A stretch of 29,252 nucleotides of DNA from a virus, in the IMG/VR virus record IMGVR_UViG_3300043410_001034, positions 1 to 29,252 of that record. One strand, given 5' to 3'. How positions within the stretch are numbered: position 1 is the first letter of the stretch; every line of letters starts with the position of its first letter. Shown here one piece after another: positions 17,580 to 25,385 of the stretch. The translations under genes were made by a program, and so were the position numbers. The notes below the pieces were generated by a model. The model saw only the letters and a list, made by a program, of their open reading frames with translations. It ran no database searches and was not told the origin of the DNA.

Positions 17580-18686
17580 ATGAAAAGAATGAAGACTCGT
17601 GATATGATGACCTTCGATGCCGCTGGCAAGCAGGTTATCGATCAGGCCGGCACCGAACGGGGCCGACTGCTCGGCACCAATTTCCAGACCCACGATGGTC
17701 GCACCGTTGACTCAACTGGTGCATTCCTCGTCGGTGAACTGGAGCGTTTGGATCTTACCCTTCACAAGCCGCTTGCGGCTGTCACTTGGGGCCGAGATAT
17801 CGACCTCCGTGACGATGTGACCATTGCTGACGACGTTTCCAGCTTCACCGTTTCAAGCTTTGCTTCAGCCGGTGGCCTCGGAGACGGTCAGGCTGTGGGT
17901 AACGGTAAGTCATGGATCGGCCGTAAATCAAATCAGGTTCCCGGCACTTCTATCGACATCGCGAAGATTGCAAACCCGCTTACTCCTTGGGGTAATGAGC
18001 TGGCTTACACCCTCTTCGAATTGGAATCAGCTGCAAAGCTCGGCCGTCCGATCGACCAGCAGAAGTTTGAAGCTCTCCAGCTGAAGCATCAGATGGACAT
18101 CGACGAACAGGTTTATATCGGTGATACTAGCCTTGGTCTGTATGGTCTGGTCAACAACCCGCTGGTAGCCCAGTACGGTACGCAGACCAGCCTCCCAGAC
18201 GGTATCAGCGGTTTCTCTCAGTGGACCAAGAAGACTCCTGACGAAATCCTCGCTGATGTTAACGAAATGCTCGTTAGCACTTGGACTGCTTCAGGTTGGG
18301 CTGTCATCTCTGACAAGATCCTGCTTCCGCCGGCTCAGTACGGTTACATCGCTACCCAGAAAGTCTCGAACGCTGGTAACGTGTCCATCCTCAAGTACAT
18401 CCTTGAGAACAACCTCTTTACCCGTTCTGAAGGTAAGGAACTGGACATCAAGCCGGTCAAGTGGCTCGTCGGTGCAGGTGCAGGCGGTACGCTGGGCGTA
18501 GCCGGTACTGTTGACCGAGCTGTAGTTTACAAGCAGGAACGGGATCGCGTTCGCTTCCCGATGACCCTGCTGAACCGCACCCCGGTACAGTACGATTCCA
18601 TTTTCCACAAGACCACTTACTTCTGTAAGCTCGGTGCTGTGGAAATCGTGTACCCGGAACTTTTGGGCTACTTCGATGGGTTATAA
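17580..18686 (+). CDS. Major capsid protein (DUF2184 family)
   Basis: This 368-residue protein is the shell subunit. It follows protease and cement genes, has a strong SD (AAGAGG) before the ATG at 17580, and shows strong codon bias (CTG, CGT, GGT, AAG). Visible DUF2184-type features are a mobile N-terminal region (MKRMKTRDMMTFDAAGKQ), an NPLTPWGNELAYTLFELE segment, EQVYIGDTSLGLYGLVN, and a C-terminal beta end VEIVYPELLGYFDGL. The length is close to the HK97-fold family norm. The next gene downstream is a homing endonuclease, which makes the capsid gene a likely target region for endonuclease invasion. The family is inferred from pattern and context. Confidence 0.85.
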   Translation: MKRMKTRDMMTFDAAGKQVIDQAGTERGRLLGTNFQTHDGRTVDSTGAFLVGELERLDLTLHKPLAAVTWGRDIDLRDDVTIADDVSSFTVSSFASAGGLGDGQAVGNGKSWIGRKSNQVPGTSIDIAKIANPLTPWGNELAYTLFELESAAKLGRPIDQQKFEALQLKHQMDIDEQVYIGDTSLGLYGLVNNPLVAQYGTQTSLPDGISGFSQWTKKTPDEILADVNEMLVSTWTASGWAVISDKILLPPAQYGYIATQKVSNAGNVSILKYILENNLFTRSEGKELDIKPVKWLVGAGAGGTLGVAGTVDRAVVYKQERDRVRFPMTLLNRTPVQYDSIFHKTTYFCKLGAVEIVYPELLGYFDGL

Positions 18687-18706
18687 TAACGGTTGAAAAG
18701 CCGTTA
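18687..18706 (+). repeat. Short hairpin after the capsid gene
   Basis: TAACGG (18687-18692) and CCGTTA (18701-18706) form a six-base stem with an eight-base loop right after the capsid stop. No T-run follows, so terminator activity is doubtful. The loop contains the -35 box of the promoter at 18693-18722. Confidence 0.45.
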
Positions 18707-18722
18707 GGGCCTAAGGTAAAAT
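18693..18722 (+). promoter_or_regulatory. Promoter for the homing endonuclease gene
   Basis: TTGAAA (18693-18698) and TAAAAT (18717-18722) are separated by 18 bases; each hexamer matches the sigma70 consensus at five of six positions. The expected first transcribed base is near 18729-18730, inside or just past the left arm of the hairpin at 18720-18750. It is the best promoter-like sequence in the late block. Confidence 0.6.
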
Positions 18723-18750
18723 CTCCCTGTTCTAAACAAGCAGGGAGATT
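18720..18750 (+). promoter_or_regulatory. RBS-hiding hairpin upstream of the homing endonuclease
   Basis: The arms AATCTCCCTG (18720-18729) and CAGGGAGATT (18741-18750) pair perfectly over ten bases with an 11-base loop. The right arm contains the only SD (AGGGAG, 18742-18747) of the endonuclease gene at 18757. Read-through RNA from upstream would carry both arms and hide the SD. RNA started at the internal promoter would lack nearly the whole left arm and expose it. Confidence 0.6.
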
Positions 18751-18756
18751 CCCCAA

Positions 18757-19500
18757 ATGGCGATTATCTACGGATTGTTTGATCCGCGTATTGAACCGAA
18801 CGTGATCCGCTATGTCGGATACACCCAGTACACTGCGGAATTTCGTCTCATTCAACATTTGACCGAGGCGAAGAAAAAGAGAAAGAGCCACCGTCATCAT
18901 TGGCTCAACAGTTTAACGGACGATGGGATTCGTCCGGGGATATTGATTCTTGAGGAAGTCTCTGAGGAGAACTGGCAAGAACGCGAACAGTATTGGATTG
19001 AGCATTACGCCGATACTGTGGTCAACGGAACTATTGGTGGTGATGGCTTAGTCAATCCTACCCAAGAAGTTCGAGACCGAATAGCCGCCAGCCTTCGGGG
19101 TCAAAACCTCGGTAACCAGTATCGTAAAGGAATCCCGCATTCAGAAGAAGTTAGGCGCAAATTAAGTGAATCGTTGCGTAATTCAGAAAAGGTTAAAGCG
19201 GCTGGTTTAGCAAAGCGGGGAATAGACCCACATCAGAATTTAACCCAAGAACAGATAGCCGCCCGAAATGAGAAAATTCGACAGGCTAAACTGGGAAAGA
19301 AAAGAACACCGTTTTCCGAAGAAACGAAAGAACGGATGCGAGAAGCACACACAGGGACCAAACTCCCAACTGCTTCCGCAAAAAAGCTGGGGTCTCGATT
19401 TATTAACGATGGAATCGAGATGAAGCAACTGAAAGCCGGGGAACCCTTACCAGATGGCTGGGTCTACGGTATGATTAAGAAACCTAAACTAGAGGATTGA
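18757..19500 (+). CDS. GIY-YIG homing endonuclease with NUMOD3-type DNA-binding repeats
   Basis: This 247-residue protein is a free-standing mobile-element nuclease. Residues about 1-95 form a GIY-YIG domain: IIYG at 3-6, RYVGYT at 18-23, R30, the EREQYWIEHY helix with its catalytic Glu, and VNGTIGGDG. Two NUMOD3-like DNA-binding segments follow (about 121-142 with GIPHSEEVRRKLSE, and about 183-202 with RTPFSEETKERMRE). The C-terminal FINDGIEMKQLKAGEPLPDG segment is typical of phage homing nucleases. It would cut a related phage lacking this gene and be copied in by repair. The ATG lies nine bases after its SD. Its last codons contain the SD of the next gene. Confidence 0.9.
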   Translation: MAIIYGLFDPRIEPNVIRYVGYTQYTAEFRLIQHLTEAKKKRKSHRHHWLNSLTDDGIRPGILILEEVSEENWQEREQYWIEHYADTVVNGTIGGDGLVNPTQEVRDRIAASLRGQNLGNQYRKGIPHSEEVRRKLSESLRNSEKVKAAGLAKRGIDPHQNLTQEQIAARNEKIRQAKLGKKRTPFSEETKERMREAHTGTKLPTASAKKLGSRFINDGIEMKQLKAGEPLPDGWVYGMIKKPKLED

Positions 19501-19502
19501 AC

Positions 19503-20018
19503 ATGGCTAAGAAAGACGCCCCGTGGCAGGCTCCAGCACAGGCACCTGCAGAAGAAGCCACCTCCGCCCCGATCGTAGAAGAAACCCCAGTTCCGGCCGC
19601 AGAAGAACCGGTTGTACCAGAGACCGAAACGGATGATTCCGTTTCTGAAGATACCACCGAAAGTCCGGCTGAAGATTTAGTGGTGGCGAAAGTCACTCAG
19701 CGTTATACTATTAGTCTTGACCATCATCGTCGGGTTACTTATATGCCGGGCAATGTAGTTATGCCAAGAGCTCACGCCGAAAGCTGGTACAGTAAGGCTT
19801 GTGGTACCGTGATTGTTGGTGTTCCGGATACGGCTTCTGTAACCGGTTTCCCGGCTAAGCAAGCTCTTGACTCTATCAAGGCGAAGGCTAATTCCGCTCA
19901 GCTGGAGCTTGGCGCTTTGTTGGAAAAGCTTAGCGATTTAACCAAAGAACAGACTGCAGCACTGACCAAGGCACGGGATGCCCTTAAAAACGCTTCAGAA
20001 CAGCTTGGGAGTTTCTAA
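19503..20018 (+). CDS. Hypothetical protein with Pro/Ala/Glu-rich N-terminus
   Basis: This 171-residue protein begins [20 protein letters not shown], then a low-complexity acidic and Pro-rich segment to about residue 60. A folded part follows ([20 protein letters not shown]), and the C-terminus is helical ([18 protein letters not shown]). Its place right after the capsid region suggests a head or connector role. Its SD (AGAGG) lies inside the end of the homing endonuclease gene. The stop overlaps the next ATG (TAATG). No family is recognised. Confidence 0.6.
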
Positions 20019-22506: not shown

Positions 22507-22837
22507 CTTTCCAGAACTGCCACCTTTTAAGATTGGGGACACCTTTCTTCTTGGTTGCATTAAAAAGGACTCCTCTGGCGTACCTGAAAATCTGACGGGA
22601 GTTCTCATCCGCTCGATGATCCGCTCGATGGCCGGGGAATTGGTCCAAGAACTTACTGTGGTTAAAGGAGACCAGACGTCAAGCCCGGGCACTTTTACTT
22701 TGTCTGCGGCACCAGTCGACACCATGGACTGGCCCTCTGAGTTTTGCCACATGGATATCAAGTTCTTTATTGACGGTCAGATTGTTAGTTCTCAGACTGT
22801 AGTGCTTCCGGTAGAGACTGGGGAAACGCATGATTGA
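22472..22837 (+). CDS. Phage structural protein, BppU-like fold suspected
   Basis: This 121-residue protein is beta-rich ([18 protein letters not shown], then [36 protein letters not shown], and [12 protein letters not shown]). The alternating hydrophobic strands with small turns resemble the N-terminal domain of BppU-type baseplate and fibre-linking proteins. The start is ATG at 22472 or 22478; neither has a good SD, so translation is probably coupled to the preceding gene. It is followed by the collagen-like fibre gene with an eight-base overlap, so it may attach the fibres. The domain link is tentative. Confidence 0.55.
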
Positions 22838-25385
22838 AGTTACTCCGCTTTATACTGTCGATGTATTCCCAGAATATAGAACCGCTGTCGTTATTGTCGG
22901 AGCTGAAGACCTCGGCGGAGCACTAGCGGCTAAAGTATATGCGGAACAAGCCGCGGCCTCTGCCGCTTTAGCGCTGGAAACTGGTATTCAAAATGCTTAC
23001 GTCGAAGGCGATGACCTTTACATCGAGCGTAATGATGGGGTTCTTTTTGACGCAGGCAACGTTCGAGGACCCACAGGGCCTGCTTCGACGATTCCGGGGC
23101 CGACTGGTCCGACCGGCCCGCAGGGTAACGATGGACCAGCTGGACCTACTGGGGCTACCGGACCCAGTGGGATTCAGGGTGAGATAGGTCCTACCGGTCC
23201 CAGTGGTGCGACAGGCCCCATTGGTCCAAGCGGTCCATCCGGCGCTACGGGTCCTATCGGCGAAATTGGGCCAACTGGTTCAACCGGTCCACAAGGGATT
23301 CAAGGTAATGTTGGAGCAACAGGACCACAGGGAGATGTTGGAGCAACTGGACCACAGGGCTTACAGGGAGATGTTGGCGCAACCGGTCCATCCGGGGTTC
23401 AAGGTCCCACAGGACCTGAAGGAGCTATTGGAGCTACTGGGCCTAGTGGTTTACAGGGCGCCGTCGGGGCTACTGGCCCATCTGGCCCACAAGGAGACGT
23501 AGGACCCGCAGGTGCTACTGGCCCATCCGGAATCGCCGGTGACGTAGGCCCGACTGGTCCATCAGGTGCAACAGGCGCTACCGGTGCAACAGGTCCGTCG
23601 GGGTCGACCGGCCCCACAGGGCCTACGGGCGCTACCGGCCCACAAGGGACTTCAATAACAATCAAAGGTTCAGTTCCAACATCTAGTGATTTACCAACTG
23701 TCGGAAATCTACCCGGCGATGGCTATATCACTTCTGATACCGGTCATCTTTGGGTCTGGACTGGATTAGCGTGGGATGACGTCGGTAGTATCGTCGGGCC
23801 TACTGGGCCAGCTGGAGCTACTGGCCCGGCTGGATTAGATGGGCCGACCGGGGCGACGGGTCCGCAAGGTGATATCGGCCCGACTGGCCCATCCGGTGCG
23901 CAGGGTGTTGATGGACCTACCGGTGCAACAGGCCCTGTCGGCGCTACGGGGCCTCAAGGTATACAGGGTGATGTTGGTGCAACTGGCCCTACCGGCCCGC
24001 AAGGTCCCGTCGGAGCTACCGGCCCTACCGGATTAACAGGGGCTACAGGCCCACAGGGAGACGTTGGTGCTACCGGGCCAACCGGATTAACGGGAGCTAC
24101 TGGTCCGCAAGGAATTCAGGGAGATGTTGGCGCAACTGGGCCTGTTGGTGCAACAGGACCTGTCGGGGCTACAGGTTTAACTGGGGCCACCGGTTTAACC
24201 GGAGCCACCGGGCCGGCTGGAGCCACAGGCCCTATCGGGGCCACAGGGCCTCAAGGAATTGCTGGGCCTACTGGACCCACTGGCGTTACCGGTCCAACTG
24301 GAGTCGGTGTTACGGGCGCCACCGGGGCTACGGGTCCTACCGGAGCTGGTGGTGCGTATGGTTATTGGGGTGCTTTTTACGATACAACAAACCAATCGGC
24401 AGCAGCAACAAATACAGCTTATTCGATAAACATTAGCAACACCGACCCAAACAGCAATGGTGTTTCTATTGTGTCGAGTAATCGTATTACTTTTGCAAAC
24501 GCCGGTATCTATACGATTAATGCATCCGTAATGTTCGAAAATACGGACACTCAAATCCACAATGGGTTACTGTGGTTCCGTAAAAACGATACTGGAGCGA
24601 CCGGAGATATCGCAGACAGCAGTAGTGATGTATCAGTTCCAAACTCGCATGGTGGTGTTCCGGGATTTGTAATCGTTACAGTACCGATGACGTTGCAGTT
24701 ATTGGCCGGGGATTACATTCAGTTAATGTGGGCAACGGACAATACCGCAATCCGTATTCCCACAGTAACACCGAGTGTTGGGCCGGTGGCGCCGGGCGTT
24801 ATAGTTTCAGTTCAACAAGTTCTTTACACGCAGCTTGGGCCTACTGGCGCAACTGGAGCAACCGGTCCTATCGGCGCAACCGGTCCTATCGGCGCGACTG
24901 GCCCAGTCGGAGCGACCGGATTAACCGGGGCAACAGGGCCTACTGGACTTACAGGTTCTGTGGGGCCAGCTGGTGCGACTGGACCTACTGGGCTTACTGG
25001 TGCTACAGGACCTACTGGATTAACAGGAGCAACAGGACCGGTTGGCGCGACTGGCCCAGCCGGGGCGACCGGACCCACGGGGTTATACTCGACAGTCTCT
25101 GATGACAATTCAACAGCGACAGCGCTGTATCCAGTATTTGTTGGAGCAACTGGGCCTGTTTCCACCAGTAAAATCAATCTGGCGAAACTTAAATACACAC
25201 CATTAACTGGCGAATTGGTAGCACCTCAATTAACGGCTTCAAATGGTATTGTGGTTAACGCGAATACAATAACCAGCAATTGCACCATAGCCTCCGGCAA
25301 TAACGCTATGTCAGCCGGGCCAATAAGTATCGCTGATGGGGTAACCGTGACTATAGCCGCTAATTCTATCTGGGTGATCTTATGA
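22830..25385 (+). CDS. Collagen-like and C1q-like tail fibre protein
   Basis: This 851-residue protein is built of modules. Residues 1-79 form an N-terminal attachment part. Then come three Gly-X-Y collagen-like segments (about 80-273, 323-506 and 670-750), mostly GPTGP, GATGP and PQG repeats. Between the first two is a module with [17 protein letters not shown] and GHLWVWTG. Residues about 507-668 form a C1q/TNF-like beta domain ([18 protein letters not shown], later [15 protein letters not shown]), and a beta-rich C-terminus ends the protein. Such proteins form trimeric fibres that bind the host surface. The Gly codons vary freely while the protein repeat is kept. The stop overlaps the next gene by four bases. 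Confidence 0.88.

Follow-up and report, generated by a model that had tools for sequence, protein, structure and literature searches.

In the I-TevI device, the SD lies in a stable stem on the read-through RNA, and a promoter yields an RNA without enough of this stem (PMC2988022, PMC3014915). Similar promoter-hairpin arrangements are listed for I-TevII, I-TevIII, T4 segB and Aeh1 mobE in a review (PMC2988022). The endonuclease-specific promoters of T4 are middle or late, none being early. Here, the leader of an endonuclease gene located behind a capsid gene is analyzed in the window, which is the whole 29,252-nucleotide stretch of an IMG/VR virus record.

The endonuclease gene and its leader

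The gene order in the window is the PF09950 capsid gene, the endonuclease gene and the next structural gene. The features of this region are as follows, L032 being a sibling locus without the endonuclease gene and L016 and L237 being loci with homologues of it.

17580-18686, + strand: major capsid protein gene (PF09950, E 8.7e-73), source of the read-through transcript
18645-18686, + strand: 3'-terminal ~40 nt of the capsid gene, with synonymous divergence from L032 (identity falls from ~0.95-1.0 to 0.6)
18687-18706, + strand: first post-capsid hairpin, TAACGGTT GAAA AGCCGTTA, containing the -35 (RNA fold)
18693-18698, + strand: -35-like hexamer TTGAAA (promoter scan)
18717-18722, + strand: -10-like hexamer TAAAAT, partly inside the left arm (promoter scan), at a position common to L016 and L237
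18720-18729, + strand: left (anti-SD) hairpin arm AATCTCCCTG (RNA fold, complementarity check)
18729, + strand: predicted transcription start (inferred, about +/-2), 7 nt past the -10, where the left arm ends
18741-18750, + strand: right hairpin arm CAGGGAGATT, bearing the SD (RNA fold, complementarity check)
18742-18747, + strand: AGGGAG, sole SD of the endonuclease gene, wholly inside the right arm
18757-19500, + strand: intact, free-standing GIY-YIG/NUMOD3 homing-endonuclease-type gene, 247 aa (ORF, profile matches)
19503-20018, + strand: following structural-operon gene, with its ATG at 19503 (direct reading; order shared with L032)

The gene at 18757-19500 is a real homing-endonuclease-type gene, for which site-specific cutting and homing are predicted. 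Its product matches NUMOD3 (1.9e-8, above the cut-off), PHROG_314 'homing endonuclease' (4.7e-13) and GIY-YIG (2.7e-4; 21.6 versus 22.6 bits, just under the Pfam cut-off). The SD of the next gene (19503) lies within the 3'-terminal part of the endonuclease gene. A 58-kb record (L002/L006) is identical to the window over the region examined. L032 represents a natural endonuclease-free site, in which the capsid protein is 99% identical to that of the window and the next gene lies ~74 nt past the capsid gene. At synonymous positions ~40 nt ahead of the capsid stop codon, the identity between the window and L032 drops sharply, to rise again downstream of the endonuclease gene. L032 is therefore an empty-site sibling with an abrupt flank divergence, which suggests the footprint of homing or another recombination event, and 18645-18686 is probably the edge of this recombination or co-conversion. 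Elsewhere in the window, an 851-aa tail-fibre/collagen-like repeat protein that matches many PHROG tail families is encoded at 22830-25382, and the portal protein encoded at 11936-13834 matches MutT/NUDIX in its C-terminal region (~511-626), an unusual-looking fusion.

The two arms are 100% complementary and form 10 bp around an 11-nt loop, and among the hairpins of the 29,252-base window with a loop of 3-14, that at 18720-18750 is the only one with 10 perfect Watson-Crick bp. The RNA of 18687-18790 folds at -38.9 kcal/mol with a z of -5.0, and 0/200 shuffles fold equally well. The SD is separated from the ATG at 18757 by 9 nt. An earlier note on this DNA had placed the sole SD in the right arm of a perfect ten-base hairpin, and every coordinate it gave holds; the further hairpin around the -35 (18687-18706) is absent from that note. 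The mean probability that the SD is unpaired is predicted to be 0.00 in the long read-through RNA and about 0.3-0.4 in the short RNA, so that the SD of the short RNA is still ~60% paired and the relief is partial. The cost of opening the ribosome footprint (-20..+13) was modelled in four loci, and upon changing from the long to the short RNA it decreases from 21.4 to 7.1 kcal/mol in the window, from 19.3 to 3.7 kcal/mol in L016, from 29.4 to 11.3 kcal/mol in L237 and from 25.4 to 9.7 kcal/mol in L089, which belongs to a second endonuclease group described below. The window hairpin matches no Rfam family. It is rejected as an intrinsic terminator, because it is followed by ATTCCCCAA instead of a U-tract, and a scan of the + strand for intrinsic terminators gives no match at this hairpin.

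TTGAAA and TAAAAT with an 18-base spacer form a sigma70-like promoter that matches the consensus at 10/12 positions, with its -10 at the hairpin edge exactly as the earlier note had described. Forward sites of this quality occur six times in 29 kb, and the chance of such a start within a given 16-nt stretch is about 0.003. When the scan is relaxed to 9/12, 3 sites are found versus 1.8 expected from shuffles, which is not above chance. An 18-nt spacer is seen in five of the six top-scoring forward look-alikes of a promoter in the window (1873, 5035, 10857, 11883 and 18693). The T4 late promoter sequence (TATAAATA) is not found at the leader of the window, where TAAAAT is combined with a sigma70-like -35 instead. 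As judged from its position in the sequence, the promoter would yield an RNA without the 5' arm. A search of the 58-kb record G001, which is identical over this region, gives no match to sigma70_r2 (PF04542), although a control matched, and a search of G001 for PF00940, run without a positive control, also gives no match. A phage-encoded polymerase or sigma factor is rejected as the user of the promoter from these two results, and the lack of a sigma70_r2 match in G001, together with the sigma70-like promoter, suggests that the host RNA polymerase is likely to use it.

It is fairly probable that the endonuclease gene is under an I-TevI-like translation switch, an explanation in which we infer the initiation at this promoter, its effect on translation, and both the timing and the purpose of the switch. 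According to this explanation, a free-standing GIY-YIG homing endonuclease gene would have been inserted behind the capsid gene, ahead of the next structural gene. The capsid read-through RNA, which holds both arms, would fold and hide the SD. A host-type RNA polymerase would start at the promoter, the -10 of which reaches into the left arm, and in the resultant short RNA, which would begin at the end of this arm and lack it, the SD would be largely accessible. This would probably serve to shield nuclease production from the plentiful capsid transcript and still permit a small supply independent of it.

Post-capsid hairpins with and without the endonuclease gene

The only other homologues of the endonuclease gene at this site are those of L016 (48% aa, frameshifted) and L237 (decayed), both of which are broken genes. 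The earlier note regarded homologues without the stem as evidence against the switch, and this check does not refute it. Both L016 and L237 keep a strong hairpin that covers the translation start and abuts the start codon, and in both of them the edge of the left arm carries a perfect TATAAT. The arms are GTATAATGTCTTCCG..CGAAAGGCATTATCATG in L016 (fold z -4.4), in which the leader reads GTATAATGTCTTCCG-TGTAACAA-CGAAAGGCATTATC-ATG, and GGGTATAATACTGGTAAGTGC..GCACTTACCAGTATG in L237 (fold z -5.4). The window, L016 and L237 share no arm sequence, the hairpins being wholly different in letters. Direct reading reveals no recognisable -35 in L016 and L237. The SD of L237 is close to the apex of the hairpin and has about the same predicted exposure in the long and short RNAs, so that only the AUG is freed. 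A -10 of at least 5/6 at the left-arm edge is found at 3/3 sites with the endonuclease gene versus 3/62 sites without it, counting L007 (p 5e-4, post hoc and from three cases).

The main rival explanation, which is considered unlikely but is the strongest of the alternatives, is that the window hairpin is the post-capsid hairpin of the capsid operon, acting as a terminator, an attenuator or an mRNA 3' stabiliser like T7 Tphi. The endonuclease gene would have come to lie downstream of it and adopted its purine-rich arm as an SD, such that SD burial and the -10 would be accidental and weak expression a by-product. Among 78 distinct endonuclease-free post-capsid regions of this capsid family, 66 contain a hairpin with 8 or more bp, 24 also having a U-rich tail, which indicates that a post-capsid hairpin is an old and common feature. 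Both endonuclease-free siblings have one: that of L032 is at the same place, and that of L007 (capsid 74%), with the arms AATATCCCTG/CAGGGATATT at L007:4145-4210, shares nine identical pairs with the window hairpin, the remaining pair being changed on both sides in a compensatory manner. L007 also has TATAAT at the left edge of the hairpin. This result suggests that the window hairpin may be ancestral and predate the endonuclease gene, or L007 may carry the scar of endonuclease loss. In addition, A-runs beside terminators can mimic TAAAAT, as in L029 and L030. However, the hairpins of the window, L016 and L237 lack a U-tract and adjoin the endonuclease start, and those of L016 and L237 have a perfect TATAAT at the edge of the arm. 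In L237, a hairpin-like sequence matching the endonuclease-free sibling L072 is located downstream of the endonuclease remnant, suggesting that the SD hairpin is separate from the old capsid hairpin. The presence of the same device at another locus, L294/L089, also argues against an inherited hairpin.

A second endonuclease group and the distribution of the layout

L089 and L294 contain related GIY-YIG/NUMOD3 genes, which are 39% identical to each other (tblastn) and are preceded by genes that are 65% alike between the two. The upstream gene of L294 has no Pfam or PHROG match and gives a structure prediction with a pLDDT of 32, and therefore the L294 site cannot be called a capsid gene. L294:2434-2497 contains a TTGACA-18-TATAAT promoter that matches the sigma70 consensus at 12/12 positions. 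Its -10 falls within the left arm of a hairpin of 19 perfect bp, the right arm of which ends in AGGAGG. L294 is the clearest promoter-in-hairpin example seen, and is better suited to experiments than the window. L089 has the same layout, but with TATACT. The hairpins of L294 and L089 differ by compensatory changes at 5 pairs. When the partner is slid as a control, a move of one column 3' leaves one pair and all other slides, including those by 2 or 3 columns, leave none. This covariation, from two sequences only, is suggestive of pairing. A second GIY-YIG-type gene follows the first at L294:3855-4634, and a very strong terminator-like hairpin (24 pairs) lies ahead of a GIY-YIG gene at L144:1285-1360.

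As the same layout occurs in different letters before related genes in other phages, the leader looks like a real on/off device, a type known until now chiefly from T4 and its relatives. The joint layout is found in 6/108 GIY-YIG genes versus 1/694 control genes (p 3e-5), a comparison that counts the very cases from which the test arose. It is not enriched in a fresh set (1/60 GIY-YIG genes, p 0.15) that took in distant relatives from a genome-contig scan, and SD pairing in 14 distant homologues versus 426 controls gives a p of 0.08. The layout is rejected as a general rule for GIY-YIG genes from these two results, and its lack of enrichment in the fresh set suggests that it belongs to small groups and not to the whole family.

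A chance meeting of an ordinary hairpin with an ordinary promoter look-alike, to which the 9/12 scan lends some weight, is quite improbable, because the layout recurs in two homologues and a second endonuclease group and its joint frequency, prompting cases included, exceeds that of the controls. It is slightly more improbable still that the inverted repeat works as DNA, as an operator that covers the promoter and serves autorepression, whether by the endonuclease or by a different protein: in every case the -10 is overlapped by the repeat, and I-TevI is documented to repress its own late promoter (PMC2988022), but the arms of the window, L016 and L237 have no common sequence, the L294/L089 covariation restores pairing and not a fixed motif, and the hairpin always spans the SD or the start.

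The I-TevI-like switch proposed in the earlier note thus stands in part. The predicted burial of the SD, the promoter-like sequence overlapping the arm, and the layout in the two site homologues and in L294/L089 agree with it, but its timing would not be that of T4. The comparative support for the switch is real but limited. If the switch is true, the device of the T4 group recurs in unrelated phages with host-type promoters, which would suggest that the need to tame a selfish nuclease behind a capsid gene pushes evolution to the same RNA solution. The locus also provides a simple bench system, consisting of a single promoter, a single hairpin and a sibling that naturally lacks the endonuclease gene.

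Comparison with known systems

Tphi of phage T7 is a true terminator, whose hairpin is located directly behind the capsid gene. The window hairpin is likewise right behind the capsid gene, but has no U-tract. T4 segD, located between genes 23 and 24, resembles the window gene as a free-standing GIY-YIG gene beside the major capsid gene, but is opposite in orientation to the capsid gene and has no promoter found (PMC2988022). In the leaders of T4 gene e and soc, the SD is hidden in the long RNA, as predicted for the window, and in gene e it is open in the RNA begun within the stem (PMC3014915); these are, however, the phage's own genes with T4 late promoters. T4 segB and Aeh1 mobE are free-standing endonuclease genes with a similar promoter-hairpin arrangement (PMC2988022), but belong to T4-group phages, and mobE is of the HNH type.

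The likeness to I-TevI consists in a GIY-YIG nuclease, an SD in a stem and the promoter-in-stem logic (PMC2988022, PMC3014915). I-TevI, I-TevII and I-TevIII are encoded in introns, whereas the window gene is free-standing. T4 I-TevI sets a middle/late promoter against early/middle read-through, whereas the window sets a sigma70-like promoter against the capsid transcript, so that the timing of the switch would be different from that in T4, or reversed. A broader generalization is offered tentatively: non-T4 endonucleases behind late structural genes may repeatedly evolve promoter-in-hairpin leaders with reversed timing, in which the arms turn over and the layout stays, such that the gene would be silent on the abundant capsid transcript and expressed early or at a low level from host sigma70. 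If true, a device outside the T4 group, with host-type promoters and under a capsid transcript, would be new, although the class of mechanism is already known.
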